From Thiomicrorhabdus xiamenensis (GTDB lineage Bacteria; Pseudomonadota; Gammaproteobacteria; Thiomicrospirales; Thiomicrospiraceae), in the NCBI RefSeq assembly GCF_013282625.1, contig NZ_CP054020.1, forward strand, positions 1,736,001-1,800,000: a stretch of 64,000 bases of DNA. The letters are read 5' to 3'. The notes beneath the pieces were generated by a model. It saw only the letters and a program-made list of their open reading frames with translations, was not told the DNA's origin and searched no databases. How positions within the stretch are numbered: position 1 is the first letter of the stretch; every line of letters starts with the position of its first letter. A program made the translations under genes and the position numbers. Of the stretch, positions 12,466 to 31,461 are shown one piece after another.

Positions 12466-13578
12466 TTAACGGCTCCCGAGCTCAAGAATTTTCTGCGCAA
12501 TCTGCTCTAATGGCAAAACAAAGTCGACCGCGCCGATTTTGACCGATTCGCCCGGCATTCCCCACACGACACTGGTTTTCTCGTCCTGGGCAACCGTTTT
12601 AACGCCCAGTTCATGCAGATCTTTAAGACCTTGAGCACCGTCGGCGCCCATCCCGGTTAGAATCACACCAACTGCCCCGGTTCCCACCGCCTGTTCAACT
12701 GAACGAAACATCACATCCACGGAAGGCTTATGACGGTTAACCGGCGGCCCGTCATTTAAGCGACAAACCAGACGAGTTCCCTCGCGCATAACCAATAAAT
12801 GTTTATCACCCGGCGCGACATACACATGCCCTTTTTCAATAGGCATACCGTCTTCGGCATGATGTACCGTCATGGCTGCAATGCTGTCCATACGATTCGC
12901 GAAAGGCGCACTGAATGCCGCCGGAATATGCTGAGTAATCACGATAGGCGGCGAATCGGCTGGCAAACGCAATAAAATTTCCTTAATCGCCTCAGTCCCA
13001 CCGGTTGAAGAACCTAACGCGATTAACTTAAAGCCTGTTGAGGCTCTGGAAACGGACGGCGTCTTTTTCGGTAACACGGCGTCGGCGGTATATTTTTCCG
13101 GAGAGGAAACTGTTGCCACCGTCGGCTGGCGCTGTTGATTGGAAACATAGCGTGCATACTGGCGCTCCAGCATGTAACGGCTTACTTTAGATGCAGTCTT
13201 AACCTTGCGTCTGATCTCGAAAGCGTAGTCTTCGAAGGTATGATGGAGATCGATTTTCGGCTTGGTAACAAAATCAACCGCTCCGAGATCCATCGCTTCA
13301 AAAGTCACATCCGCGCCCTTTTCAGTCAACGTCGAAATCATGACAACCGGCAAAGGGTGCAAACGCATCAGGTTTTTTAAAAACGTCACGCCGTCCATTT
13401 TCGGCATCTCTACGTCCAGCGTCAGCACATCCGGATGCAGCAGTTTGATTTTTTCACGTGCGTCATACGGATCGGAAGCCGTTCCGACCACCTCGATTTC
13501 CGGATCGGAACCGAGCATCTCGGATAGCATTTTTCTGACCAGCTCGGAGTCATCGACAATCAATACTTTTACCGACAT
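12466..13578 (-). CDS. cheB: Chemotaxis protein-glutamate methylesterase/deamidase CheB
   Basis: Response-regulator methylesterase that removes methyl groups from receptor glutamates and deamidates glutamines. The receiver domain spans residues 1-125, with acidic pair Asp9/Asp10, phosphoacceptor Asp55 (LDVEMPKMDG) and KPK. A linker follows to the catalytic domain (about 183-370) with Ser191 (GSSTGGTEA), His217 (TQHIPAAF) and Asp313 (GMGADG) as the triad. Full length. It lies about 57 bp after cheR and is probably co-transcribed. Confidence 0.96.
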   Translation of the reverse strand: MSVKVLIVDDSELVRKMLSEMLGSDPEIEVVGTASDPYDAREKIKLLHPDVLTLDVEMPKMDGVTFLKNLMRLHPLPVVMISTLTEKGADVTFEAMDLGAVDFVTKPKIDLHHTFEDYAFEIRRKVKTASKVSRYMLERQYARYVSNQQRQPTVATVSSPEKYTADAVLPKKTPSVSRASTGFKLIALGSSTGGTEAIKEILLRLPADSPPIVITQHIPAAFSAPFANRMDSIAAMTVHHAEDGMPIEKGHVYVAPGDKHLLVMREGTRLVCRLNDGPPVNRHKPSVDVMFRSVEQAVGTGAVGVILTGMGADGAQGLKDLHELGVKTVAQDEKTSVVWGMPGESVKIGAVDFVLPLEQIAQKILELGSR

Positions 13579-13635
13579 ATGAAATTCCTTTTCAATTTTC
13601 TATCACGCCAAAAACCATTTAAATCGGCACGTTTA

Positions 13636-14463
13636 TCAACTGATTTTGCGATAAATCGTTTTACCCAACAATTCAAACCGGTCACAGACGTTATACAGCG
13701 ATTCCGAATGACCGACAAACAAATAGCCGCCGTTCGGCAGACGGTCGGCATAGCGGTCGAACAGCCGCGCCTGGGTCGGTTTATCAAAATAGATAACCAC
13801 ATTACGGCAAAAGATCACATCGATCGCGTCGCGAATAGGCCAATCCGCCATCAGATTCAGCTGGGAAAATTCGATAATATCCTGCAGCTCTTTTTTCACC
13901 TTGGCAAAACCTTCACGCGCGCCGGTGCCTTTCAAAAACCAACGTTTTTTACGATCCAGATCCATCCCTTTCAAACGATCGACATTATAGACACCATTAA
14001 CCCCCGTCTGAACCACATTCGAATCCAGATCGGTCGCAATCACTTTCGCATCCCAGCCAGCCGGCACCGTTTCTTTGAGAACAATGGCAATGGAATAAGG
14101 TTCTTCTCCGGTCGAGCAGCCTGCAGACCAGACCCGTATCTTACGTTTGTCGGCATTTTTCTCCAGCAACTCCGGAATGACCGTCTGTGCCAAATGTTCG
14201 AAATGGTGGTTTTCGCGGAAAAAGAAGGTCAGATTGGTCGTAATCGCATTGATTAGATGAACGAATTCTTCCTCACCCTGCTTATCGACAAAATCCAGAT
14301 ACTCTTTGAAACTTTGTTTCTCCAAAAAGCGAATTCGTTTCGCCAGCCGGTTATATACCAGATTCTTTTTGGATTCATTCAGATCGATTCCGGCAAAGTC
14401 GTAAACAATCTTTTTTATCTTATCGAATTCTTTATCGGTAAATACAAACTCGCGCTCATCCAT
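13636..14463 (-). CDS. cheR: Chemotaxis protein methyltransferase CheR
   Basis: SAM-dependent methyltransferase that adds methyl groups to receptor glutamates, opposing CheB. The N-terminal helical CheR_N domain is followed by the SAM-binding fold with SAGCSTGEEPYSIAI, VIATDLDSNVV and DVIFCRNVVIYFD. Starting at ATG 14463 (MDEREFVF) gives 275 residues, the family length. The frame also allows a TTG seven codons earlier. A GAGAGG lies 13 nt upstream of the ATG. It is the first gene of cheR-cheB and is divergent from the FliK-like gene. Confidence 0.95.
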   Translation of the reverse strand: MDEREFVFTDKEFDKIKKIVYDFAGIDLNESKKNLVYNRLAKRIRFLEKQSFKEYLDFVDKQGEEEFVHLINAITTNLTFFFRENHHFEHLAQTVIPELLEKNADKRKIRVWSAGCSTGEEPYSIAIVLKETVPAGWDAKVIATDLDSNVVQTGVNGVYNVDRLKGMDLDRKKRWFLKGTGAREGFAKVKKELQDIIEFSQLNLMADWPIRDAIDVIFCRNVVIYFDKPTQARLFDRYADRLPNGGYLFVGHSESLYNVCDRFELLGKTIYRKIS

Positions 14464-14490
14464 GATATTTACCCGTCCTCTCAATGCCTA

Positions 14491-14514
14491 GTTAACGGAT
14501 TTTGCTCCGTTAAC
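14491..14514. repeat. Perfect 9-bp inverted repeat between cheR and the FliK-like gene
   Basis: GTTAACGGA and TCCGTTAAC flank six bases (TTTTGC). There is no T-run on either side, so it does not look like a terminator. It sits 28 bp upstream of cheR, inside the likely leader, so an operator or an mRNA hairpin is possible. Confidence 0.6.
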
Positions 14515-14652
14515 GTTGAATGGTATGCTTGCGAAAGATTATTCGAGTCGTTATTCGAGATCGCTTTTCGACAAGCTCTACGTATCCAAACGGCCGCTAA
14601 TGGCCGCTTAATGGGATAATTTTGACAAAAACCTTAAAATCCGGGGTTAATA

Positions 14653-15681
14653 ATGCTCACAATCACCCACAATCTTAACTCAAGTCAACTAGCTCCGGAC
14701 CTCCAGAAATCTCTGCTCGCCTCCCTTAAAACCGGGCAGATACTTAACGCTTCGATTGAAAAAATTAACGGTCAGGAAGTGACGTTGCGCGTAGGACAAA
14801 ATGTATTCACGGCCAACACAACCGTCAGCGGACTGCAGACAGGCGAGATACAATTAAGCGTCAAGCAAACTCAACCGTCTCTGGTTCTGGCTATCGCCCA
14901 ACGCCCGCAATTAACCGCCTCTTCGCAGGAGGTGATTCAGGCTGCAATCCGTCAACACCTGGTCAATCAGCAACCTCTCGGTCAGATTAGTCAACAACTG
15001 ACACAACTCTTGAACCAACTGCCCAGTCAGCTACAACCACCGCTGACCGCTTTACTCGAACAACTGCGTAAACCGCTTAGCGCAAATACAGGCAACGATC
15101 TGAAAAACCAGCTCAATAACAGTGGACTGTTCTTGGAATCCAAACTGCTGCTGGGGAAGTCCGACGGCAACACCCCCAAACAAGATCTCAAAGCCCAATT
15201 CCTGCAATTCAAACAACTGGCCCAGCAAAGTAGCGGTGTACAGAATGCCGCAACGCAACTGGCCAGCAAATTAAGCGATCAGGCAATCAGCAAAATCACC
15301 CTCAATCAGCTGCAACTGTACCAGAATCCAGCGGTGATCGGTTTTGAATTCGCCCCACCCAATCCACAAACTATCGATGATCAGTTGGAATTCAGAAAAA
15401 AACGCACGGACAAAGGCAATCGCTGGGAGGTTTTTGTCAATCTGCAGACCTCTGACGGTGAACTGAAAAGCAAAATCAGCTTTGACGCCGAAGAGAATTT
15501 ATACTGCGGCATCTGGTGCCAAAACGATACCCTTGGCAAGCGAATCGAAAGCAAGATCACCGAATTGCATGACTTATTCGAAGCTCTGGATCTGCAAAGC
15601 GTCCATCTGCGTCTACTGCCCTCACCGCCAGAACAAAGCAAACAGGGACAAAGAGTCGCCCTGATCGATATTCATATCTGA
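14653..15681 (+). CDS. FliK-like (hook-length control domain) protein
   Basis: A 342-residue protein. The N-terminal 70 residues form a small domain (GQILNASIEKINGQEVTLRVG), followed by a Gln/Leu-rich middle with no membrane segment. The C-terminus (about 245-342) resembles the Flg_hook domain of FliK (RWEVFVNLQTSDGELKSKIS, then a helix and QSVHLRLLPSP). The true fliK is at 34985-37078, so this is a second, divergent copy. FliK-like genes are commonly found beside fhlB, which lies at the other end of this plus-strand block. A role with FhlB in export switching is an inference. Confidence 0.65.
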   Translation: MLTITHNLNSSQLAPDLQKSLLASLKTGQILNASIEKINGQEVTLRVGQNVFTANTTVSGLQTGEIQLSVKQTQPSLVLAIAQRPQLTASSQEVIQAAIRQHLVNQQPLGQISQQLTQLLNQLPSQLQPPLTALLEQLRKPLSANTGNDLKNQLNNSGLFLESKLLLGKSDGNTPKQDLKAQFLQFKQLAQQSSGVQNAATQLASKLSDQAISKITLNQLQLYQNPAVIGFEFAPPNPQTIDDQLEFRKKRTDKGNRWEVFVNLQTSDGELKSKISFDAEENLYCGIWCQNDTLGKRIESKITELHDLFEALDLQSVHLRLLPSPPEQSKQGQRVALIDIHI

Positions 15682-15818
15682 CGGTTCCTAGCCTCTGGCG
15701 TAATTTGTGGCAAATCAAGTCGCCTGATAAATTTTCATTCAGTTCCGTTATACCCCTAGACCTTTAGTGGGTAATCGGTTAATTTACCCTAAATCCCATT
15801 ACTAAAAGAGTTTTGCGC

Positions 15819-16352
15819 ATGGAAAACGCGGAAAAAAACCTGGACGATATTCAGGAACAGATTGATCAAAGCCACTCCGATGATGATCAGGTTTTAAGTT
15901 TTGTTCTGGGGAATGAAGAATATGGCGTCGATATCCTGAGAGTACAGGAAATAAAAGGCTGGGAAAAAACCACCGACATTCCGAATACACCTGACTATGT
16001 CATGGGGGTCATCAACCTTCGTGGCGCGGTTGTGCCGATCGTCGATCTCAGAGTCCGTTTCGGGCTGGATAACATCACCTATAACGACTCGACCGTCGTG
16101 GTGATCGTTCGCGCCGAAGACACCAACGGCAGTCACAAGATTATCGGCATGGTGGTTGACGGCGTATCGGATGTACATTCGGTCAGCCAGCAGACGCTAC
16201 AGGCTGCCCCGTCGATGTCAGGCACGATCAACACGGAATACGTCAAAGGATTGGCTACGGTGGGGGATAAAATGGTCATTATCCTGCATATCGACCAGTT
16301 GATTAACGACGGCATTCTATCGGCGATAAAAAAATCGCTTAATATTGAATAG
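15819..16352 (+). CDS. cheW: CheW-type chemotaxis coupling protein (copy 1)
   Basis: A 177-residue scaffold linking CheA to receptor tips. An acidic N-terminal 25-residue tail precedes a standard CheW domain (QVLSFVLGNEEYGVDILRVQ; PDYVMGVINLRGAVVPIVDL with the conserved NLRG; IIGMVVDGVSDV). It starts at ATG 15819 after AAAAGAG. It is the second gene of the plus-strand block and the more canonical of the two CheW proteins in this window. Confidence 0.93.
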   Translation: MENAEKNLDDIQEQIDQSHSDDDQVLSFVLGNEEYGVDILRVQEIKGWEKTTDIPNTPDYVMGVINLRGAVVPIVDLRVRFGLDNITYNDSTVVVIVRAEDTNGSHKIIGMVVDGVSDVHSVSQQTLQAAPSMSGTINTEYVKGLATVGDKMVIILHIDQLINDGILSAIKKSLNIE

Positions 16353-16421
16353 GCCTTGTTTTAAGGCCCGTATCATACGACAATAAAAATCATTTGATTG
16401 AAAGCAAAAAGAGAGATTAGG

Positions 16422-16781
16422 ATGTCAAAAATCTTAGCAGTGGATGATTCAAAATCAATGAGACAGATGGTTAGCATGTCCCTGAAATCGGCCGGACACG
16501 ACGTCACGGAAGCGGAAGACGGCTTAGCAGCATTGGATATTGCCAAACAAAACCAATTCGATCTCGTAGTCACTGATATCAATATGCCGAATATGAATGG
16601 CATTGAATTAATCACCGCATTGCGCGCAATGCCGAACTACAAGTTCACACCGATTCTATGTCTGACAACGGAATCCTCCGGCGACATGAAAACCAAAGGT
16701 AAAGAAGCGGGTGCGACCGGCTGGATCGTTAAACCTTTCAGCCCTGAAAAACTGCTTTCGGTTATCGGACGCGTCCTTTAA
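16422..16781 (+). CDS. CheY-like single-domain response regulator (copy 2)
   Basis: A 119-residue receiver with acidic pair Asp8/Asp9, phosphoacceptor Asp52 (VVTDINMPNMNG), TT at 82-83 and Lys104 (WIVKPF). No output domain. It groups by eye with CheY proteins encoded next to STAS proteins in accessory chemosensory clusters (AVDDSKSMRQMV, TTESSGDMKTKGKEAGATGW) rather than with the flagellar-switch CheY at 20972. The start is ATG 16422; the frame is open eight codons further but without a better start. It may act as a phosphate sink or as a second output. Confidence 0.88.
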   Translation: MSKILAVDDSKSMRQMVSMSLKSAGHDVTEAEDGLAALDIAKQNQFDLVVTDINMPNMNGIELITALRAMPNYKFTPILCLTTESSGDMKTKGKEAGATGWIVKPFSPEKLLSVIGRVL

Positions 16782-16833
16782 CTCCTGCCGGTTGCGAAAC
16801 TGCCATTTAATTGACCTGATAAAGGATTTAGTG

Positions 16834-17112
16834 ATGAGTTCTACCATTACTTTGAACGACAGTCTGATCATTAACCAGATTGAAGAACAGTTTTCGCAAC
16901 TGAACGCCCAGTTCAATGAAGCGGAAAACGACATTATCATCGATGCTGCGGCAGTTGATACGATTGACACTGCCGGACTGCAATCCTTGCTGATGCTGAT
17001 TCAAACCGCTGAAACCAACGGAAAAAGCATTCGCTGGGAATCGCCATCTGAAACTCTGGTTACTTCCGCCGATAAACTGGGCTTGAGTGCAATCCTGCGC
17101 TTGAACGCCTAA
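16834..17112 (+). CDS. STAS-domain protein
   Basis: A 92-residue single STAS domain (anti-sigma-antagonist fold). The usual phosphorylated helix start is seen as VDTIDTAGLQSLLML, where Thr takes the place of the serine found in SpoIIAA (DSSGL type). It starts at ATG 16834 after AAAGGATTTAGTG, 52 bp behind the CheY-like gene. STAS proteins in chemotaxis operons are of unclear role. No partner anti-sigma kinase is visible nearby. Confidence 0.85.
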   Translation: MSSTITLNDSLIINQIEEQFSQLNAQFNEAENDIIIDAAAVDTIDTAGLQSLLMLIQTAETNGKSIRWESPSETLVTSADKLGLSAILRLNA

Positions 17113-17455: not shown

Positions 17456-17959
17456 TTATTCGTGATTGGCAAAAATGGTATCCACATCGACCAGAATAAT
17501 GACACTGTCCTGATAGTGGGCAATCCCCTGAATATGGCGCGAGGCATTATCTTTTGTCGATGAAAGCGCTTCAAACTTCTTCTCGGGAATATCTTTAACT
17601 TCCATCACAAAGTCCACCAGCATCCCCACCGTCCGCTCGTCATCCAGCTCGACAATAATGATCCGTGACAGATCATCGATCTCTTTCGGCATCATATCGA
17701 ACATAATCCGCGTATCGACTACGGTAACAATCACCCCACGGACATTGATTACGCCTAAAACCTGACGGTTTGCCCCTGGAACCGATCTGATCTGCCCGAC
17801 GCGCAAAACTTCACGAATCTTGCTCACTTGTATTCCGTAGATCTCATTCTCAAGAGCGAACATCACACAACGGACGCTCGGCCCCATAAAGTCTTCTTCA
17901 TCCATATCGTTCATGATCGAGACATTATTAACGAATCCTCTACTACCGCTTACTTGCAT
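17456..17959 (-). CDS. cheW: CheW-type chemotaxis coupling protein (copy 2)
   Basis: A 167-residue CheW-domain protein with an extra N-terminal stretch of about 27 residues (acidic MNDMDEEDFMG). Core features are RCVMFALENEIYGIQVSKIR, RQVLGVINVRGVIVTVVD and MLVDFVMEVKDI. The start ATG 17959 follows GAGGTGAT. It is the last gene of the flhA-to-cheW operon, 23 bp behind cheA, so it is the likely core partner of that CheA. Confidence 0.93.
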   Translation of the reverse strand: MQVSGSRGFVNNVSIMNDMDEEDFMGPSVRCVMFALENEIYGIQVSKIREVLRVGQIRSVPGANRQVLGVINVRGVIVTVVDTRIMFDMMPKEIDDLSRIIIVELDDERTVGMLVDFVMEVKDIPEKKFEALSSTKDNASRHIQGIAHYQDSVIILVDVDTIFANHE

Positions 17960-17982: not shown

Positions 17983-20088
17983 CTAATACTGGAAGCGCTG
18001 AATCACACCGGGGAGATCCAGAATCAATGCAATATTACCGTTACCGGTAATGGTCGCTCCGGCATAACCAGAAAGCTTCTTCAACATAACCCCTAAAGGT
18101 TTGATCACGACCTCTTCCTGTCCATTTACCTGATCGACCACCAGTCCGGCCCTCTGATTCCCGATGGAAACAATCACGACTTTATCGTCGTCATAACTCT
18201 CTTTGCTGCTTCCCGGCGACAACCAGTCATCAAGGAAAAACAACGGAATACTTTTATCACGCAAACGCACCATTCTCTGACCGTCAATTTTGTTAGTCTT
18301 CGAAGCGTCATAATCGAAAATTTCCTGCACGCTGGTCAACGGAATCGCATAGCTGTCTTCACCGAATGCGACCATTAACGTTGGCAGAATAGCCAAGGTC
18401 AAAGGCACTCTGATACTGATTTGCGTACCCTGCCCAAGAACCGAATGAATATCGATACTGCCGTTAAGCTTGGTGATCATATTTTTGACCACATCCATAC
18501 CGACCCCACGGCCGGAAATATCGCTGATCTGTTCGGCCGTCGAAAAACCGGCGGAAAGAATCAGTTCAAACGCAGATTTATCATCCAACTGATTCGCCGC
18601 AACCTCGTCCATCAGTCCTTTTTCGACCGCTTTTCGGCGCAGGACATCCGGGTCCATCCCTTTTCCATCGTCGGTAATTGACAGCAGAATGTGATCGCCT
18701 TCCTGTTCCGCAGCCAAAATCACCTGACCGGTTTCCGGCTTACCGGCAGCAATGCGATCCTGAGGCATTTCAACGCCATGATCCACAGAGTTACGAACCA
18801 GGTGAACCAAAGGATCGGCCAGGGCTTCGACGAGATTCTTATCCAGATCGGTTTCCTCACCTTTAAGCTCGAGAGCGATTTTTTTGCCGAGCTTTCTTGC
18901 CAGATCGCGGACAACACGCGGAAAACGGCCGAAGACTTTTTTAACCGGCTGCATTCGGGTTTTCATCACCGAAGCCTGCAGGTCAGTGGTAACATGATCT
19001 AAATTCCCTACTGCGTTCGAAATCTCTTCCGAACTGCCACTGCTGCCGCGCAGAGTCAAAAGACGGTTGCGCACCAGAACCAGTTCTCCGACAAGGTTCA
19101 TAATTTCATCCAGTCGGCGGGTATCGACACGAACGGTAGATTCGGGGTTACTCTTGGCCAGCGGTTTGGGAGTCGTACTGCTGTTACTCTTCGGAGCCGG
19201 TGATGGCGTTGCTTGCGCTGCGGGCGCCGCCGGAGCTGAAGAAAGTTGCACGGCTTTTGCCGGAGGAATATCGAGCGTATCCTCATCATGCAACATCAGA
19301 TCGCGCTGATTCAACAAGGCTTCAAATTCGTCGTCGGTAATTTCGCCATCAGGATCCACGCCTTCGGGCAATTTCAATTCGACAGTTGATGAAGCGTCTT
19401 GCGCCGCTGAAGATTGCTGGAGTTGGTCACGCTGATTTAACAGAGCCTCAAACTCGTCATCGGTAATATCACCGTCGGGATCCACACCTTCCGGTAATTC
19501 AAGTCTGACATTTTCCGGTTGCGACGATGCACCCGGCTGATCCGCATCGCCGAGGAGGAAATCACGCTGATTTAATAGCGCCTCAAATTCGTCGTCGGTA
19601 ATTTCACCATCCGGATCAACCCCTTCCGGAAGCTGTAAAGAGACATCTTTAACAGGTTCAGCCGCTTGAGGGGCTGGCTGCACAAGTTCCGGCTCGGCAG
19701 CAGCGCCTTTGGTCAACTGATCAAGTTCAGCCAATAGCTGCGGATCGTTTTCCGGAAGATCACGTTCACCGGCATTCAAAGCTTCAATTGAATCGGAAAT
19801 GACGTCAAACGCCCGCAGAATAACATCTGCTGCAACCGCATCATAGGAAACGTCGCCATTACGGATCTTATCAAAGACGTTTTCCGCTCTGTGGCAAACT
19901 TCGACCAGCGGCGTAATCCCCAGAAAACCGGCGCCGCCTTTGACCGTATGAAAACCGCGAAATACGGCATTAAGCAAATCCGCATCGGTCGGAGACTGTT
20001 CAAGCTCAACCAGCTGCTCGTTCAACTGGTCAACCAACTCAGATGCTTCGACCAAAAAGTCGCTTAAAATTTCTTCATCCACGATCAT
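17983..20088 (-). CDS. cheA: Chemotaxis histidine kinase CheA
   Basis: Autokinase that phosphorylates CheY and CheB under receptor control. Order: HPt domain with phospho-His47 (FRGFHTVKGGAGF); a linker of about 200 residues carrying three near-identical repeats (153-176, 198-221, 240-263); dimerisation helices (about 318-382); ATP domain with N-box LVRNSVDHG, G1 DDGKGM and G2 GRGVGMDVV; CheW-like domain (about 565-701). A folded P2 docking domain as in E. coli was not recognised; the repeats occupy that position. The ATG is at 20088. It is flanked by cheZ and cheW in the same operon. Confidence 0.96.
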   Translation of the reverse strand: MIVDEEILSDFLVEASELVDQLNEQLVELEQSPTDADLLNAVFRGFHTVKGGAGFLGITPLVEVCHRAENVFDKIRNGDVSYDAVAADVILRAFDVISDSIEALNAGERDLPENDPQLLAELDQLTKGAAAEPELVQPAPQAAEPVKDVSLQLPEGVDPDGEITDDEFEALLNQRDFLLGDADQPGASSQPENVRLELPEGVDPDGDITDDEFEALLNQRDQLQQSSAAQDASSTVELKLPEGVDPDGEITDDEFEALLNQRDLMLHDEDTLDIPPAKAVQLSSAPAAPAAQATPSPAPKSNSSTTPKPLAKSNPESTVRVDTRRLDEIMNLVGELVLVRNRLLTLRGSSGSSEEISNAVGNLDHVTTDLQASVMKTRMQPVKKVFGRFPRVVRDLARKLGKKIALELKGEETDLDKNLVEALADPLVHLVRNSVDHGVEMPQDRIAAGKPETGQVILAAEQEGDHILLSITDDGKGMDPDVLRRKAVEKGLMDEVAANQLDDKSAFELILSAGFSTAEQISDISGRGVGMDVVKNMITKLNGSIDIHSVLGQGTQISIRVPLTLAILPTLMVAFGEDSYAIPLTSVQEIFDYDASKTNKIDGQRMVRLRDKSIPLFFLDDWLSPGSSKESYDDDKVVIVSIGNQRAGLVVDQVNGQEEVVIKPLGVMLKKLSGYAGATITGNGNIALILDLPGVIQRFQY
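19300..19632 (-). repeat. Three tandem LPEGVDPDG-ITDDEFEALLNQRD repeats within cheA
   Basis: Each copy is 24 residues. All three share LPEGVDPDG, E or D, then ITDDEFEALLNQRD, separated by about 18-21 unrelated low-complexity residues. The second half (ITDDEFEALLNQ) resembles the CheY-binding N-terminal peptide of FliM in this same window (ILSQDEVDALLKGM). Seen directly in the translation; the docking role is inference. Confidence 0.85.
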
Positions 20089-20224: not shown

Positions 20225-20878
20225 CTAAATACCAAGATCACTCAGAAGGTCATCCACATCGTCCTGCGAAGCGACCGATTCTTTTTTGGATTCGCGCGTG
20301 ACATTCGGACCGATTCCCTTCTCAAGCTCCTGTTCCGATTTCGGTTTATCCGGAATCGCATTGTAGTCGTGACCGGCATCCTGAATCAGCGCGATCAAGC
20401 TCTGTTCAAGCGAAGAGATAATTAAAATCACACGATTCAGAACCTGACCGGTCAGGTCCTGGAAAGATTGCGCCAGCATAATATTATTCAATTCGTCTTG
20501 CAGACGTTGCAGCGCGGCCGCAATATCGCTCGACGGATTTTGTCCCATAACCTGCTCAATTAGAGCCAGACTGTTTTCGGCACTGGTCAATGTCTTGTCA
20601 CTGGCCTCCTCGACCGTATCAAGAACGTACTGCAAACGCTCGGCGGCATCCGGGATATCGTGTTTGGTCTGCATCAGAAGCGGTAAATGATCCAGTTCGT
20701 CCAGAGTCTGATGCAGATCACGGGTAAGAGAGGAAACTTCCTGATAGATGGATTTGTCATCTTGGGCGGAGAGCTGTTGGGTCAATACGCGGGCAGTCGC
20801 CTGATCACCGGATTCCAGCGCTTTAACCAGATCTTTGGCCAAAACGAGTTGAGGGTTATTCTGGGAGGCTTGAGTCAT
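20225..20878 (-). CDS. cheZ: Protein phosphatase CheZ
   Basis: Dephosphorylates CheY-P at the pole or motor. The 217-residue all-helical protein shows the family catalytic helix region LAQSFQDLTGQVLNRVI, whose Gln (in the QDLTGQ segment) inserts into the CheY active site. It ends with the CheY-tethering peptide SQDDVDDLLSDLGI. I use ATG 20878 rather than the adjacent TTG. It lies 93 bp after cheY and about 140 bp before cheA in the same operon. Confidence 0.94.
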   Translation of the reverse strand: MTQASQNNPQLVLAKDLVKALESGDQATARVLTQQLSAQDDKSIYQEVSSLTRDLHQTLDELDHLPLLMQTKHDIPDAAERLQYVLDTVEEASDKTLTSAENSLALIEQVMGQNPSSDIAAALQRLQDELNNIMLAQSFQDLTGQVLNRVILIISSLEQSLIALIQDAGHDYNAIPDKPKSEQELEKGIGPNVTRESKKESVASQDDVDDLLSDLGI

Positions 20879-20971
20879 CAATTAAATTCCTGAGGGTTAT
20901 GGGAAGAACAGCAAACAACCCGCATTGAGCCTGGAAAGGACAGGCTCGATCTGTATTTATTATAAGAATTA

Positions 20972-21376
20972 TTAAGCTTGCTGACGTTGAGCGACGCGCT
21001 CGAAGATTTTTTGAATTTTTTCGTTAAGAGTCGCCGCAGTGAACGGCTTGACAATATACCCGTCAACACCGGCCTGAGCCGCTTCCAGAATCTGTGAGCG
21101 TTTGGCTTCGGCGGTAATCAAAAGAAACGGTGTATCTTTTAATTGCGCATCGGCACGAACACGGCGCAGAAGCTCGATTCCGGTCATCTCCGGCATATTC
21201 CAGTCACTGACAATAAAATCGTATTTCCCGGACTGAATCATCGGCCAGGCGGTCGCACCGTCATCCGCTTCGTCAAACTTGCTAAAACCAAGCTCTTTAA
21301 GCAAATTCTTAACGATTCGACGCATTGTCGAAAAATCGTCAACAACCAAAATATTCATATCTCGATTAATTTGCAT
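20972..21376 (-). CDS. cheY: Chemotaxis response regulator CheY (flagellar switch)
   Basis: A 134-residue single receiver that binds FliM/FliN when phosphorylated and changes motor rotation. Asp13/Asp14, phosphoacceptor Asp58 (VSDWNMPEMTG), Thr88 (LLITAEA) and Lys110 (YIVKPFTAATLNEKI) are the classic enterobacterial/Vibrio CheY pattern. The start ATG 21376 follows AAGGAAAGC; MNILVV six codons later is an alternative. It lies between fliA and cheZ, the standard gammaproteobacterial order. Confidence 0.96.
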   Translation of the reverse strand: MQINRDMNILVVDDFSTMRRIVKNLLKELGFSKFDEADDGATAWPMIQSGKYDFIVSDWNMPEMTGIELLRRVRADAQLKDTPFLLITAEAKRSQILEAAQAGVDGYIVKPFTAATLNEKIQKIFERVAQRQQA

Positions 21377-30449: not shown

Positions 30450-31461
30450 CGTACCACTCCTTCACATTCTCTACAGTTCGGTCCTGATAGGCTGGATGAT
30501 GCAATATCTGTTCCACCTTGACCGCTTTTTTATCTTTGCTACGTCCAAGTTTTCCACGCATGATCGCTATATCCTCGGCCTTAATAGAAACCTGTTCCGG
30601 CATCTCGATCGGAATGATATCGCCGGTTTTCATCTTCATCAGATCGTCGAAACTCATTACCACGTCCAGCAGGTTGACACTCAAATCGACTTCGATATTT
30701 TTCGCTTCTTCCTTAAGCGTGCGCGACCAGCGATTATCACTTTCACCCTGCAGGTTCTGCATCCCTTCTTCGAGTTTGTCGCGAACCGGCTCCAGCATGG
30801 CATAAGGCATCACGATATCAACCCGTCCTTCAACGCCTTCAAAACGGATATTGATCGGGCTGACGACAATCATGTCGGTCGGATCGACAATACCGGCAAA
30901 CTTCGGATTCATCTCCGAGTGCATATACTCGATTTCAATATCCATCACCGGCCCCCAGGCCTTGCGCAGATTGTCCGAGATAATATCCAGAATACTGCGC
31001 ACCATGCTCATCTCAACCGGCGTATATTCGCGCCCCTCGATTTTGAACGGCAACAGACCGGTTCCGCCGAAATAGATATCCACAGCGGTAAATACCAGCT
31101 TGGAATCGAGTGTAAACAGCGAGACACCATTCAGCGGATTGACGCGATAAATATTAAGGCTGGTCGGGACAAACAGGTTACGCAGATAATCGATCATTTT
31201 AATGATCTTAACTTCCGACGCCGTCACCTCGACGCTGGCCATAATCATTTCATTGAAATGGCGTTGAAAACCGCGTGCAAAACGCTCATTGATAATATCC
31301 AATGCCGGTAGACGGCCGCGCACAATGCGCTCCTGATTGGTAAAGTCGTAAACTTTGGCACCAACCGCTTCCGAGCCATCGTCGTTTTCGGTTTCGATAT
31401 CGCCGCCGCCCATCCCTTTCAACAGGGCATCGACTTCATCTTGGCTTAAAATATCATCCAT
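30442..31461 (-). CDS. fliM: Flagellar motor switch protein FliM
   Basis: A 339-residue C-ring protein that receives CheY-P. The N-terminal CheY-binding peptide is MDDILSQDEVDALLKGM. The middle CheC-like domain carries GGxG-like IYFGGTGLLPFKIEG, and the C-terminal SpoA domain binds FliN. It starts at ATG 31461 and lies between fliL and fliN in the usual order. Confidence 0.97.
   Translation of the reverse strand: MDDILSQDEVDALLKGMGGGDIETENDDGSEAVGAKVYDFTNQERIVRGRLPALDIINERFARGFQRHFNEMIMASVEVTASEVKIIKMIDYLRNLFVPTSLNIYRVNPLNGVSLFTLDSKLVFTAVDIYFGGTGLLPFKIEGREYTPVEMSMVRSILDIISDNLRKAWGPVMDIEIEYMHSEMNPKFAGIVDPTDMIVVSPINIRFEGVEGRVDIVMPYAMLEPVRDKLEEGMQNLQGESDNRWSRTLKEEAKNIEVDLSVNLLDVVMSFDDLMKMKTGDIIPIEMPEQVSIKAEDIAIMRGKLGRSKDKKAVKVEQILHHPAYQDRTVENVKEWYGE

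Follow-up and report, generated by a model that had tools for sequence, protein, structure and literature searches.

Conserved linker repeats as putative CheY-docking motifs in a CheA of Thiomicrorhabdus xiamenensis with no detected P2 domain

How might a CheA kinase with no detectable P2 domain hold CheY close to its phospho-histidine? The question is raised by a chemotaxis locus of Thiomicrorhabdus xiamenensis, which we analysed within a 64,000 nucleotide stretch of the chromosome (the window; coordinates below refer to it). The gene order on the minus strand is cheY-cheZ-cheA-cheW, and these genes are part of a large flagellar block that also contains fliM, fliN, flhA, flhB, flhF and fliA (names from reading the open reading frames). 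The features of the chemotaxis genes are as follows.

17456..17959, minus strand: cheW, directly after cheA (CheW, E 2.2e-32)
17983..20088, minus strand: cheA, 701 aa, with Hpt, repeat-bearing linker, H-kinase_dim, HATPase_c and CheW regions
17995..18378, minus strand: P5, CheW-like, CheA aa 571-698 (Pfam PF01584, E 1.1e-26)
18397..18816, minus strand: HATPase_c (P4), CheA aa 425-564 (Pfam PF02518, E 1.7e-17)
18958..19143, minus strand: P3 dimerisation domain, CheA aa 316-377 (Pfam PF02895, E 1.6e-15)
19777..20073, minus strand: Hpt (P1), CheA aa 6-104 (Pfam PF01627, E 2.1e-17)
20225..20881, minus strand: cheZ (Pfam PF04344, E 3.1e-40)
20972..21376, minus strand: cheY, presumed partner of the CheA repeats (Response_reg, E 4.4e-29)

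Matches to all four of the Pfam domains Hpt, H-kinase_dim, HATPase_c and CheW place the 701 aa protein among the CheA histidine kinases, and the window CheY is close to solved CheY chains, for example 3to5, 4hns and 1djm. The closest named genomes are those of Thiomicrorhabdus and Hydrogenovibrio, in a search that may omit the window's own record. The genes cheB, parC and parP are absent between cheA and cheW in the window, which differs in this from the Vibrio locus L071. Beyond cheW, on both strands of positions 12466-17112, lie a cheB, a cheR-like gene, a CheW, a single-domain CheY-like receiver and a STAS-like open reading frame (names from reading), and these may be part of a further signalling set. 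We note that the same genome encodes a second CheA of 705 aa (L130:124-2238, genome G000) without the repeat motif described below; a P2-like region picked out by eye in the linker of this second CheA was confirmed neither by Pfam nor by a search of solved chains.

In the window CheA the stretch between Hpt and the dimerisation domain contains three copies of a 24-residue repeat, as the initial annotation had it. They are listed here with the 3 residues that precede and the 1 that follows each 24-mer.

19297..19380, minus strand: CheA repeat 3, aa 237-264, ELKLPEGVDPDGEITDDEFEALLNQRDL
19423..19506, minus strand: CheA repeat 2, aa 195-222, RLELPEGVDPDGDITDDEFEALLNQRDQ
19558..19641, minus strand: CheA repeat 1, aa 150-177, SLQLPEGVDPDGEITDDEFEALLNQRDF

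The common 24-mer is LPEGVDPDG[E/D]ITDDEFEALLNQRD, and the three pairs of copies are identical at 23, 24 and 23 of 24 residues. At the DNA level the same pairs match at 60, 59 and 57 of the 72 positions, and 11, 13 and 14 of their respective mismatches are synonymous. Because the codons have diverged synonymously and the residues are near-identical, the copies did not arise by recent duplication, and for the same reason the protein sequence of the repeat appears to be kept by selection. The pattern [ST][DEQ][DEQ][DEQ][FVIL][DE]x[LM][LM], a FliM/CheZ-like pattern picked after the repeats had been seen, is found at three places in CheA, whereas 20,000 shuffles yield it 0.001 times on average and never more than once. 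In the Thiomicrorhabdus/Hydrogenovibrio clade the repeats (window 19297-19641) have an upstream extension, a strongly conserved stretch of the LPEGVDPDG type whose spacing is EF-hand-like.

The repeats lie where a P2 domain might be expected, and neither P2 (PF07194) nor the CheY-binding domain (PF09078) is found by Pfam in the window CheA at E values up to 1. AlphaFold2 models of the CheA of a sister genome, which is 95% identical to that of the window, leave the stretch from Hpt to P3 without a folded domain. Both results support the earlier statement that repeats stand in place of a recognisable P2. According to the available text of Berry et al. 2023 (PMC10782961; preprint PMC10542144), P2 is absent from over half of CheAs, which have an unstructured region instead, and the published reading of such CheAs is that P2 is dispensable (PMC10782961, section 12). 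The window CheA resembles the P2-less CheAs of that account (PMC10782961) in having no P2 and an extended Hpt-P3 region, but the region is called unstructured in the available text, whereas the window linker carries conserved repeats; the word "motif" is absent from the available preprint text (PMC10542144). A study of Pseudomonas putida, in its available part, depicts CheA with a CheY-binding (P2) domain among its Pfam-predicted domains (PMC11978298); none of the 52 motif-bearing CheAs scanned here, Pseudomonas included, matches PF09078 or PF07194 at E 0.01.

Scans of 370 genomes of the class for P2-type domains and for the motif, run with identical sampling settings, gave five over-cut-off P2-type matches (four to PF09078, one to PF07194), and among the matches listed none is in a motif-bearing frame. 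Genome G179 has both the motif and a P2-type match, on separate contigs, and two further motif genomes (G330 and G336) have below-cut-off P2 matches, likewise on contigs apart from the motif. As a test of mutual exclusion this comparison is weak because the Pfam P2 models are insensitive, as is reported by Berry et al. 2023 in the available text (PMC10782961).

The linker is much less conserved than the domains on either side of it except at the repeats. In an alignment of 52 CheAs the mean majority residue reaches 47% in the linker, 75% in P1 and 80% in the core; 32 of 180 well-filled linker columns have one residue in at least 80% of the sequences, and 28 of these 32 are in three motif blocks, the others being two columns at the end of P1 and two prolines. 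Glu-Phe in one copy, and Glu-Phe and Leu-Leu in another, are invariant across all 52. These 52 were picked from 82 parsed CheAs, and most of the 52 came from a search that used the motif for two of its six patterns, so the set leans towards the motif. With 28 of 32 conserved columns in the repeats, the "unstructured" linker is not featureless, and the comparison of linkers across relatives that the initial annotation had proposed finds the repeats to be nearly its sole strongly conserved part.

A profile built from 38 motif peptides matches 154 of the 370 sampled class genomes at E 0.05, a few of which contributed rows to the profile and so match by construction. Two copies are found in 70 of the 154, three in 61, one in 15 and four in 8, and five of the single-copy genomes (G076, G111, G230, G303 and G311) are weak matches at E 0.026-0.047. 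The frames that carry the motif, among the matches listed, are mostly about 650-780 residues long; some are shorter, often by contig ends. A phylum-wide search with the profile at E 0.001 matched 55 of 299 genomes, all from the window's own or the same class, a figure that bears on the matching genomes and not on absence outside the class, as 224 non-matching genomes come without a stated kinship. With a relaxed pattern, 121 loci with a parsed CheA gave three copies in 76, two in 29, four in 15 and none in one; this set is biased, since it contains some same-genome duplicates and 80 of its loci came from the search that used the motif for two of six patterns. One locus (L127) has no match to the strict pattern, and variant copies can be seen there by eye.

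Named motif-bearing loci include those of Pseudomonas, Vibrio, Shewanella, Alteromonas and Marinobacter. In relatives of the window the motif is mostly LPEGVDPDG[DE][IM][TS]D[DE]EFEALLNQRD, and in the Pseudomonas/Vibrio/Shewanella type it is [DE]ITDDEFEALLDQLHGKG-like. The initial annotation mentioned single or paired motifs in Pseudomonas CheA: the motif is indeed there, and its number needs correction, as two Pseudomonas linkers (L097 and L117) have four copies each by eye and other Pseudomonas loci one to three by the strict pattern. Three copies, which the same annotation had thought notable, are no oddity, two and three being the usual numbers in the motif genomes. We found no description of the motif in the open-licence literature searched. 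One locus, L173 (G069:C1:2592000-2611000) in a one-contig genome, has a motif-bearing CheA, CheZ, ParP and flagellar genes, and no FliM match at 1e-40.

The second half of the repeat had been likened to the CheY-binding peptides of FliM and CheZ encoded in the same window, and both peptides are located as described.

20234..20272, minus strand: CheZ C-terminal peptide ASQDDVDDLLSDL, with a weak alignment (E 0.1) to the CheZ C-terminus of 1kmi
31414..31449, minus strand: FliM N-terminal peptide LSQDEVDALLKG, weakly matching the FliM peptide chain in 4iga (E 0.6)

Chance matches score similarly here; a further solved structure, 1f4v, we take to be a FliM complex. The likeness was measured by an ungapped BLOSUM62 scan of the 32,819 12-mers in window open reading frames of at least 100 residues. 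The FliM query scores 57 with itself, 31 with the CheZ tail and 25 with each of the three CheA repeats, the next background 12-mer scoring 24, and the CheA 12-mer as query has FliM as its best non-self match (25, with the next at 23). With a CheZ 13-mer as query the CheA repeats are not among the top 14 of a window scan of this type, and with a Pseudomonas-type CheA 13-mer a segment of a 698-aa open reading frame, read as FlhA, scores 29 and FliM 26. The repeats are also outside the top 12 for a matrix of 13 FliM/CheZ peptides, whose top match is no test because the matrix contains a peptide identical to the window's CheZ tail. Searches of the genome with the CheA motif profile at E values up to 10 pick up neither FliM nor CheZ; among solved chains the profile has no meaningful match (one at E 4.1), and neither has the linker itself (one at E 0.13). 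Thus, within the window and with FliM as query, no other peptide than the CheZ tail scores above the repeats (25, versus 24 for the background), and the claimed likeness fails with the CheZ query, the matrix and the profile; the resemblance is weak and suggestive, not significant.

The CheA repeats share with the FliM peptide (4iga chain) a short acidic D-E-[V/F]-[D/E]-A-L-L segment, but differ from it in being repeated and internal (linker aa 150-264, and not N-terminal as in FliM), in having T-D-D for S-Q-D and Phe for Ile/Val, so that they are similar to the FliM-type LSQ-x-E-[IV]-D-A-L-L with different residues, and in the lack of a profile-level match. They are short, acidic and end in L-L like the C-terminal CheY-binding peptide of CheZ (CheZ in 1kmi), which unlike them is C-terminal and single and for which, as query, they fall outside the top 14. 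With P2 (PF09078/PF07194) they have in common their place between Hpt and P3 and, as proposed here, the job of holding CheY near P1; P2 is one folded domain, whereas the repeats are short repeated motifs without a domain match.

Their position and conservation, the acidic and amphipathic nature of their sequence and the failure to detect a P2 lead us to see the repeats as, most probably, an array of short putative CheY-docking motifs in tandem that does the job of P2, a reading to which we would give an even chance. Four other functions have to be weighed against it.

The first is that an array component or a polar-positioning component docks at the repeats, on the model of the Vibrio CheA LID, the partner of which is the CheW-like AIF domain of ParP; the original LID paper is reportedly Ringgaard 2014. 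We consider this an unlikely function. A Vibrio review, in its available part, places the LID, an additional segment present only where ParC/ParP occur, between P2 and P3 (PMC7534058), which puts it in the same linker as the repeats, and since little else is conserved in that linker the LID may overlap them. Of 232 class genomes searched, 73 match ParP at E 1e-6, three of them having supplied rows to the ParP profile, and 70 of the 73 carry the motif; Vibrio locus L071 has the order cheA-cheB-parC-parP-cheW (by reading) with three repeats, one of them variant. For L071:8386-9186 and its relatives the strong association of ParP with the motif suggests that an overlap of LID and repeats is possible in Vibrio.

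In the window's own genome, however, neither the Vibrio ParP nor a 13-sequence ParP profile finds a ParP, and the seven CheW-domain stretches there are accounted for, by eye from their translations, by two CheA, two CheV and three CheW proteins. The position of the repeats, in the linker before P3, agrees with that of the LID, and the co-occurrence with ParP does not extend to this genome, which keeps the repeats although the available description limits the LID to ParC/ParP species (PMC7534058). No match to the Vibrio ParP was found in 37 genomes of the family, 34 of which have this CheA and keep two or three copies. The ParP profile, run on 58 family genomes, matched weakly in four (E 2e-5 to 9.5e-5), the window's genome not being among them; three of these matches lie in CheV-sized frames (307-334 residues), and that of a congener (G014) is in a 184-residue frame with internal stops. 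A further 23 motif genomes (handles up to G267), all assumed to be among the 232 searched, have no ParP match, three of them (G076, G111 and G230) resting on motif matches at E 0.035-0.047. ParP docking cannot be the whole function of the repeats because ParP was not found in the window's genome, and as a sole function we reject it for the window's clade, where the repeats are kept and ParP was not found. It may be a use to which the repeats are put in some lineages, and is not what keeps them in this clade.

The helices of the repeats might instead dock inside the kinase or on an array protein (P1, P4, P5, CheW or CheV) and so tune autophosphorylation or array packing, which we think improbable. 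It bears on this possibility that AlphaFold2 predicts the helices about equally confidently without CheY. The prediction was made on an artificial single chain from the sister-genome locus L010, composed of CheY, an out-of-frame spacer and the CheA Hpt and linker, and on the same chain without CheY. CheY and Hpt are predicted with high confidence, the spacer and most inter-repeat segments with low confidence, and one helix is formed per repeat. In ten-residue blocks, repeats 1, 2 and 3 have confidences of 79-74, 81-86-57 and 84-92-85 with CheY, and of 81-86-58, 78-87-78 and 79-88-85 without it; these are confidence values alone, from alignments that differ (46 and 23 rows) and with shifted block borders. 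With tethered CheY the confidence of repeat 3 is slightly higher and that of repeats 1 and 2 is not, so that the comparison speaks neither for nor against docking of CheY at the repeats. The variable copy number and spacing of the repeats would, on the other hand, be easier to reconcile with a flexible docking array than with a fixed internal contact.

That the repeats are SHOCT domains, with a role in oligomerisation or some other binding, is very unlikely, even though the whole window CheA scores 32.7 bits with this Pfam family against a cut-off of 27, in two stretches, and 47 of 52 CheAs match it at E 0.01. SHOCT (PF09851) has about 30 residues and two helices; the best stretch here is 12 residues long and covers positions 13-24 of the 28 in the profile, so the first SHOCT helix is unmatched, and each repeat has one predicted helix. 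The CheA of Vibrio L071 scores 22.8, under the cut-off, and in the available text of the SHOCT paper (PMC3581485) its own experiment gave no support for oligomerisation, and the words "CheA" and "chemotaxis" do not occur. Where such CheAs are annotated with SHOCT, the label is probably spurious and due to short matches within the repeats. Degenerate calcium-binding EF-hand-like loops (GVDPDGEITDDE plus helix) can be dismissed as a very remote prospect: the window's clade does have the D-x-D-G-x-I-x-x-x-E spacing, EF-hand_5 gives a below-cut-off E of 0.042 on the window CheA and one of 52 relatives matches it at E 0.0027, but the EF-hand consensus has Asp at position 1 of an acidic loop, where the repeats have Gly, and in the linkers inspected outside the Thiomicrorhabdus/Hydrogenovibrio clade DPDG is absent and the ITDDEFEALL-type core is kept.

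If the repeats are CheY-docking motifs, the linker would be a P2-less, largely disordered tether bearing short amphipathic docking helices with the core I-T-[DE]-[DE]-E-F-[DE]-x-L-L. Each would probably bind CheY, and perhaps CheB too, on the alpha4-beta5-alpha5 face, which in CheY is common to FliM, the CheZ tail and the classical P2 domain. Each flexible tether would carry two to four copies, and the CheA dimer twice as many, which could raise the local concentration of CheY beside the P1 phospho-histidine, and P2 would in this way be replaced by avidity instead of a folded domain. The identity of CheY as the ligand, its binding face and any gain in phosphotransfer are our inference.

Peptides of the FliM type bind phosphorylated CheY in preference, whereas P2 must catch the unphosphorylated protein, so simple FliM mimicry would capture the wrong form of CheY; the Phe that the repeats have instead of Ile/Val may alter this preference. 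CheY residue 104 (D or N; presumably E. coli numbering) tracks R or L in the motif in 67 of 67 distinct loci, and we do not count this covariation as support, since it is a single clade split and one of 18 scattered clade-specific CheY differences. In the available part of a published comparison, CheY-F6 differs from the CheYs that work with CheA-F7 at ten positions, eight at the CheA interface and three of them facing P2, and also by a reversed charge at position 117 of the helix that binds FliM (PMC7184735). As described there, these differences are compatible with another ligand on the FliM-binding face.

More broadly, and more tentatively, many gammaproteobacterial flagellar CheAs may have exchanged P2 for an array of short motifs, two to four in number, that bind the FliM/CheZ face of CheY, so that CheY is handed between chemically similar sites and the avidity on the kinase side is set by the number of repeats. 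If this is true, kinase, phosphatase and motor would all hold CheY via related peptides. The repeats may also help to explain the LID region, and a conserved linker motif in Pseudomonas, Vibrio, Shewanella and their relatives offers a testable answer to how P2-less CheAs could hold CheY.
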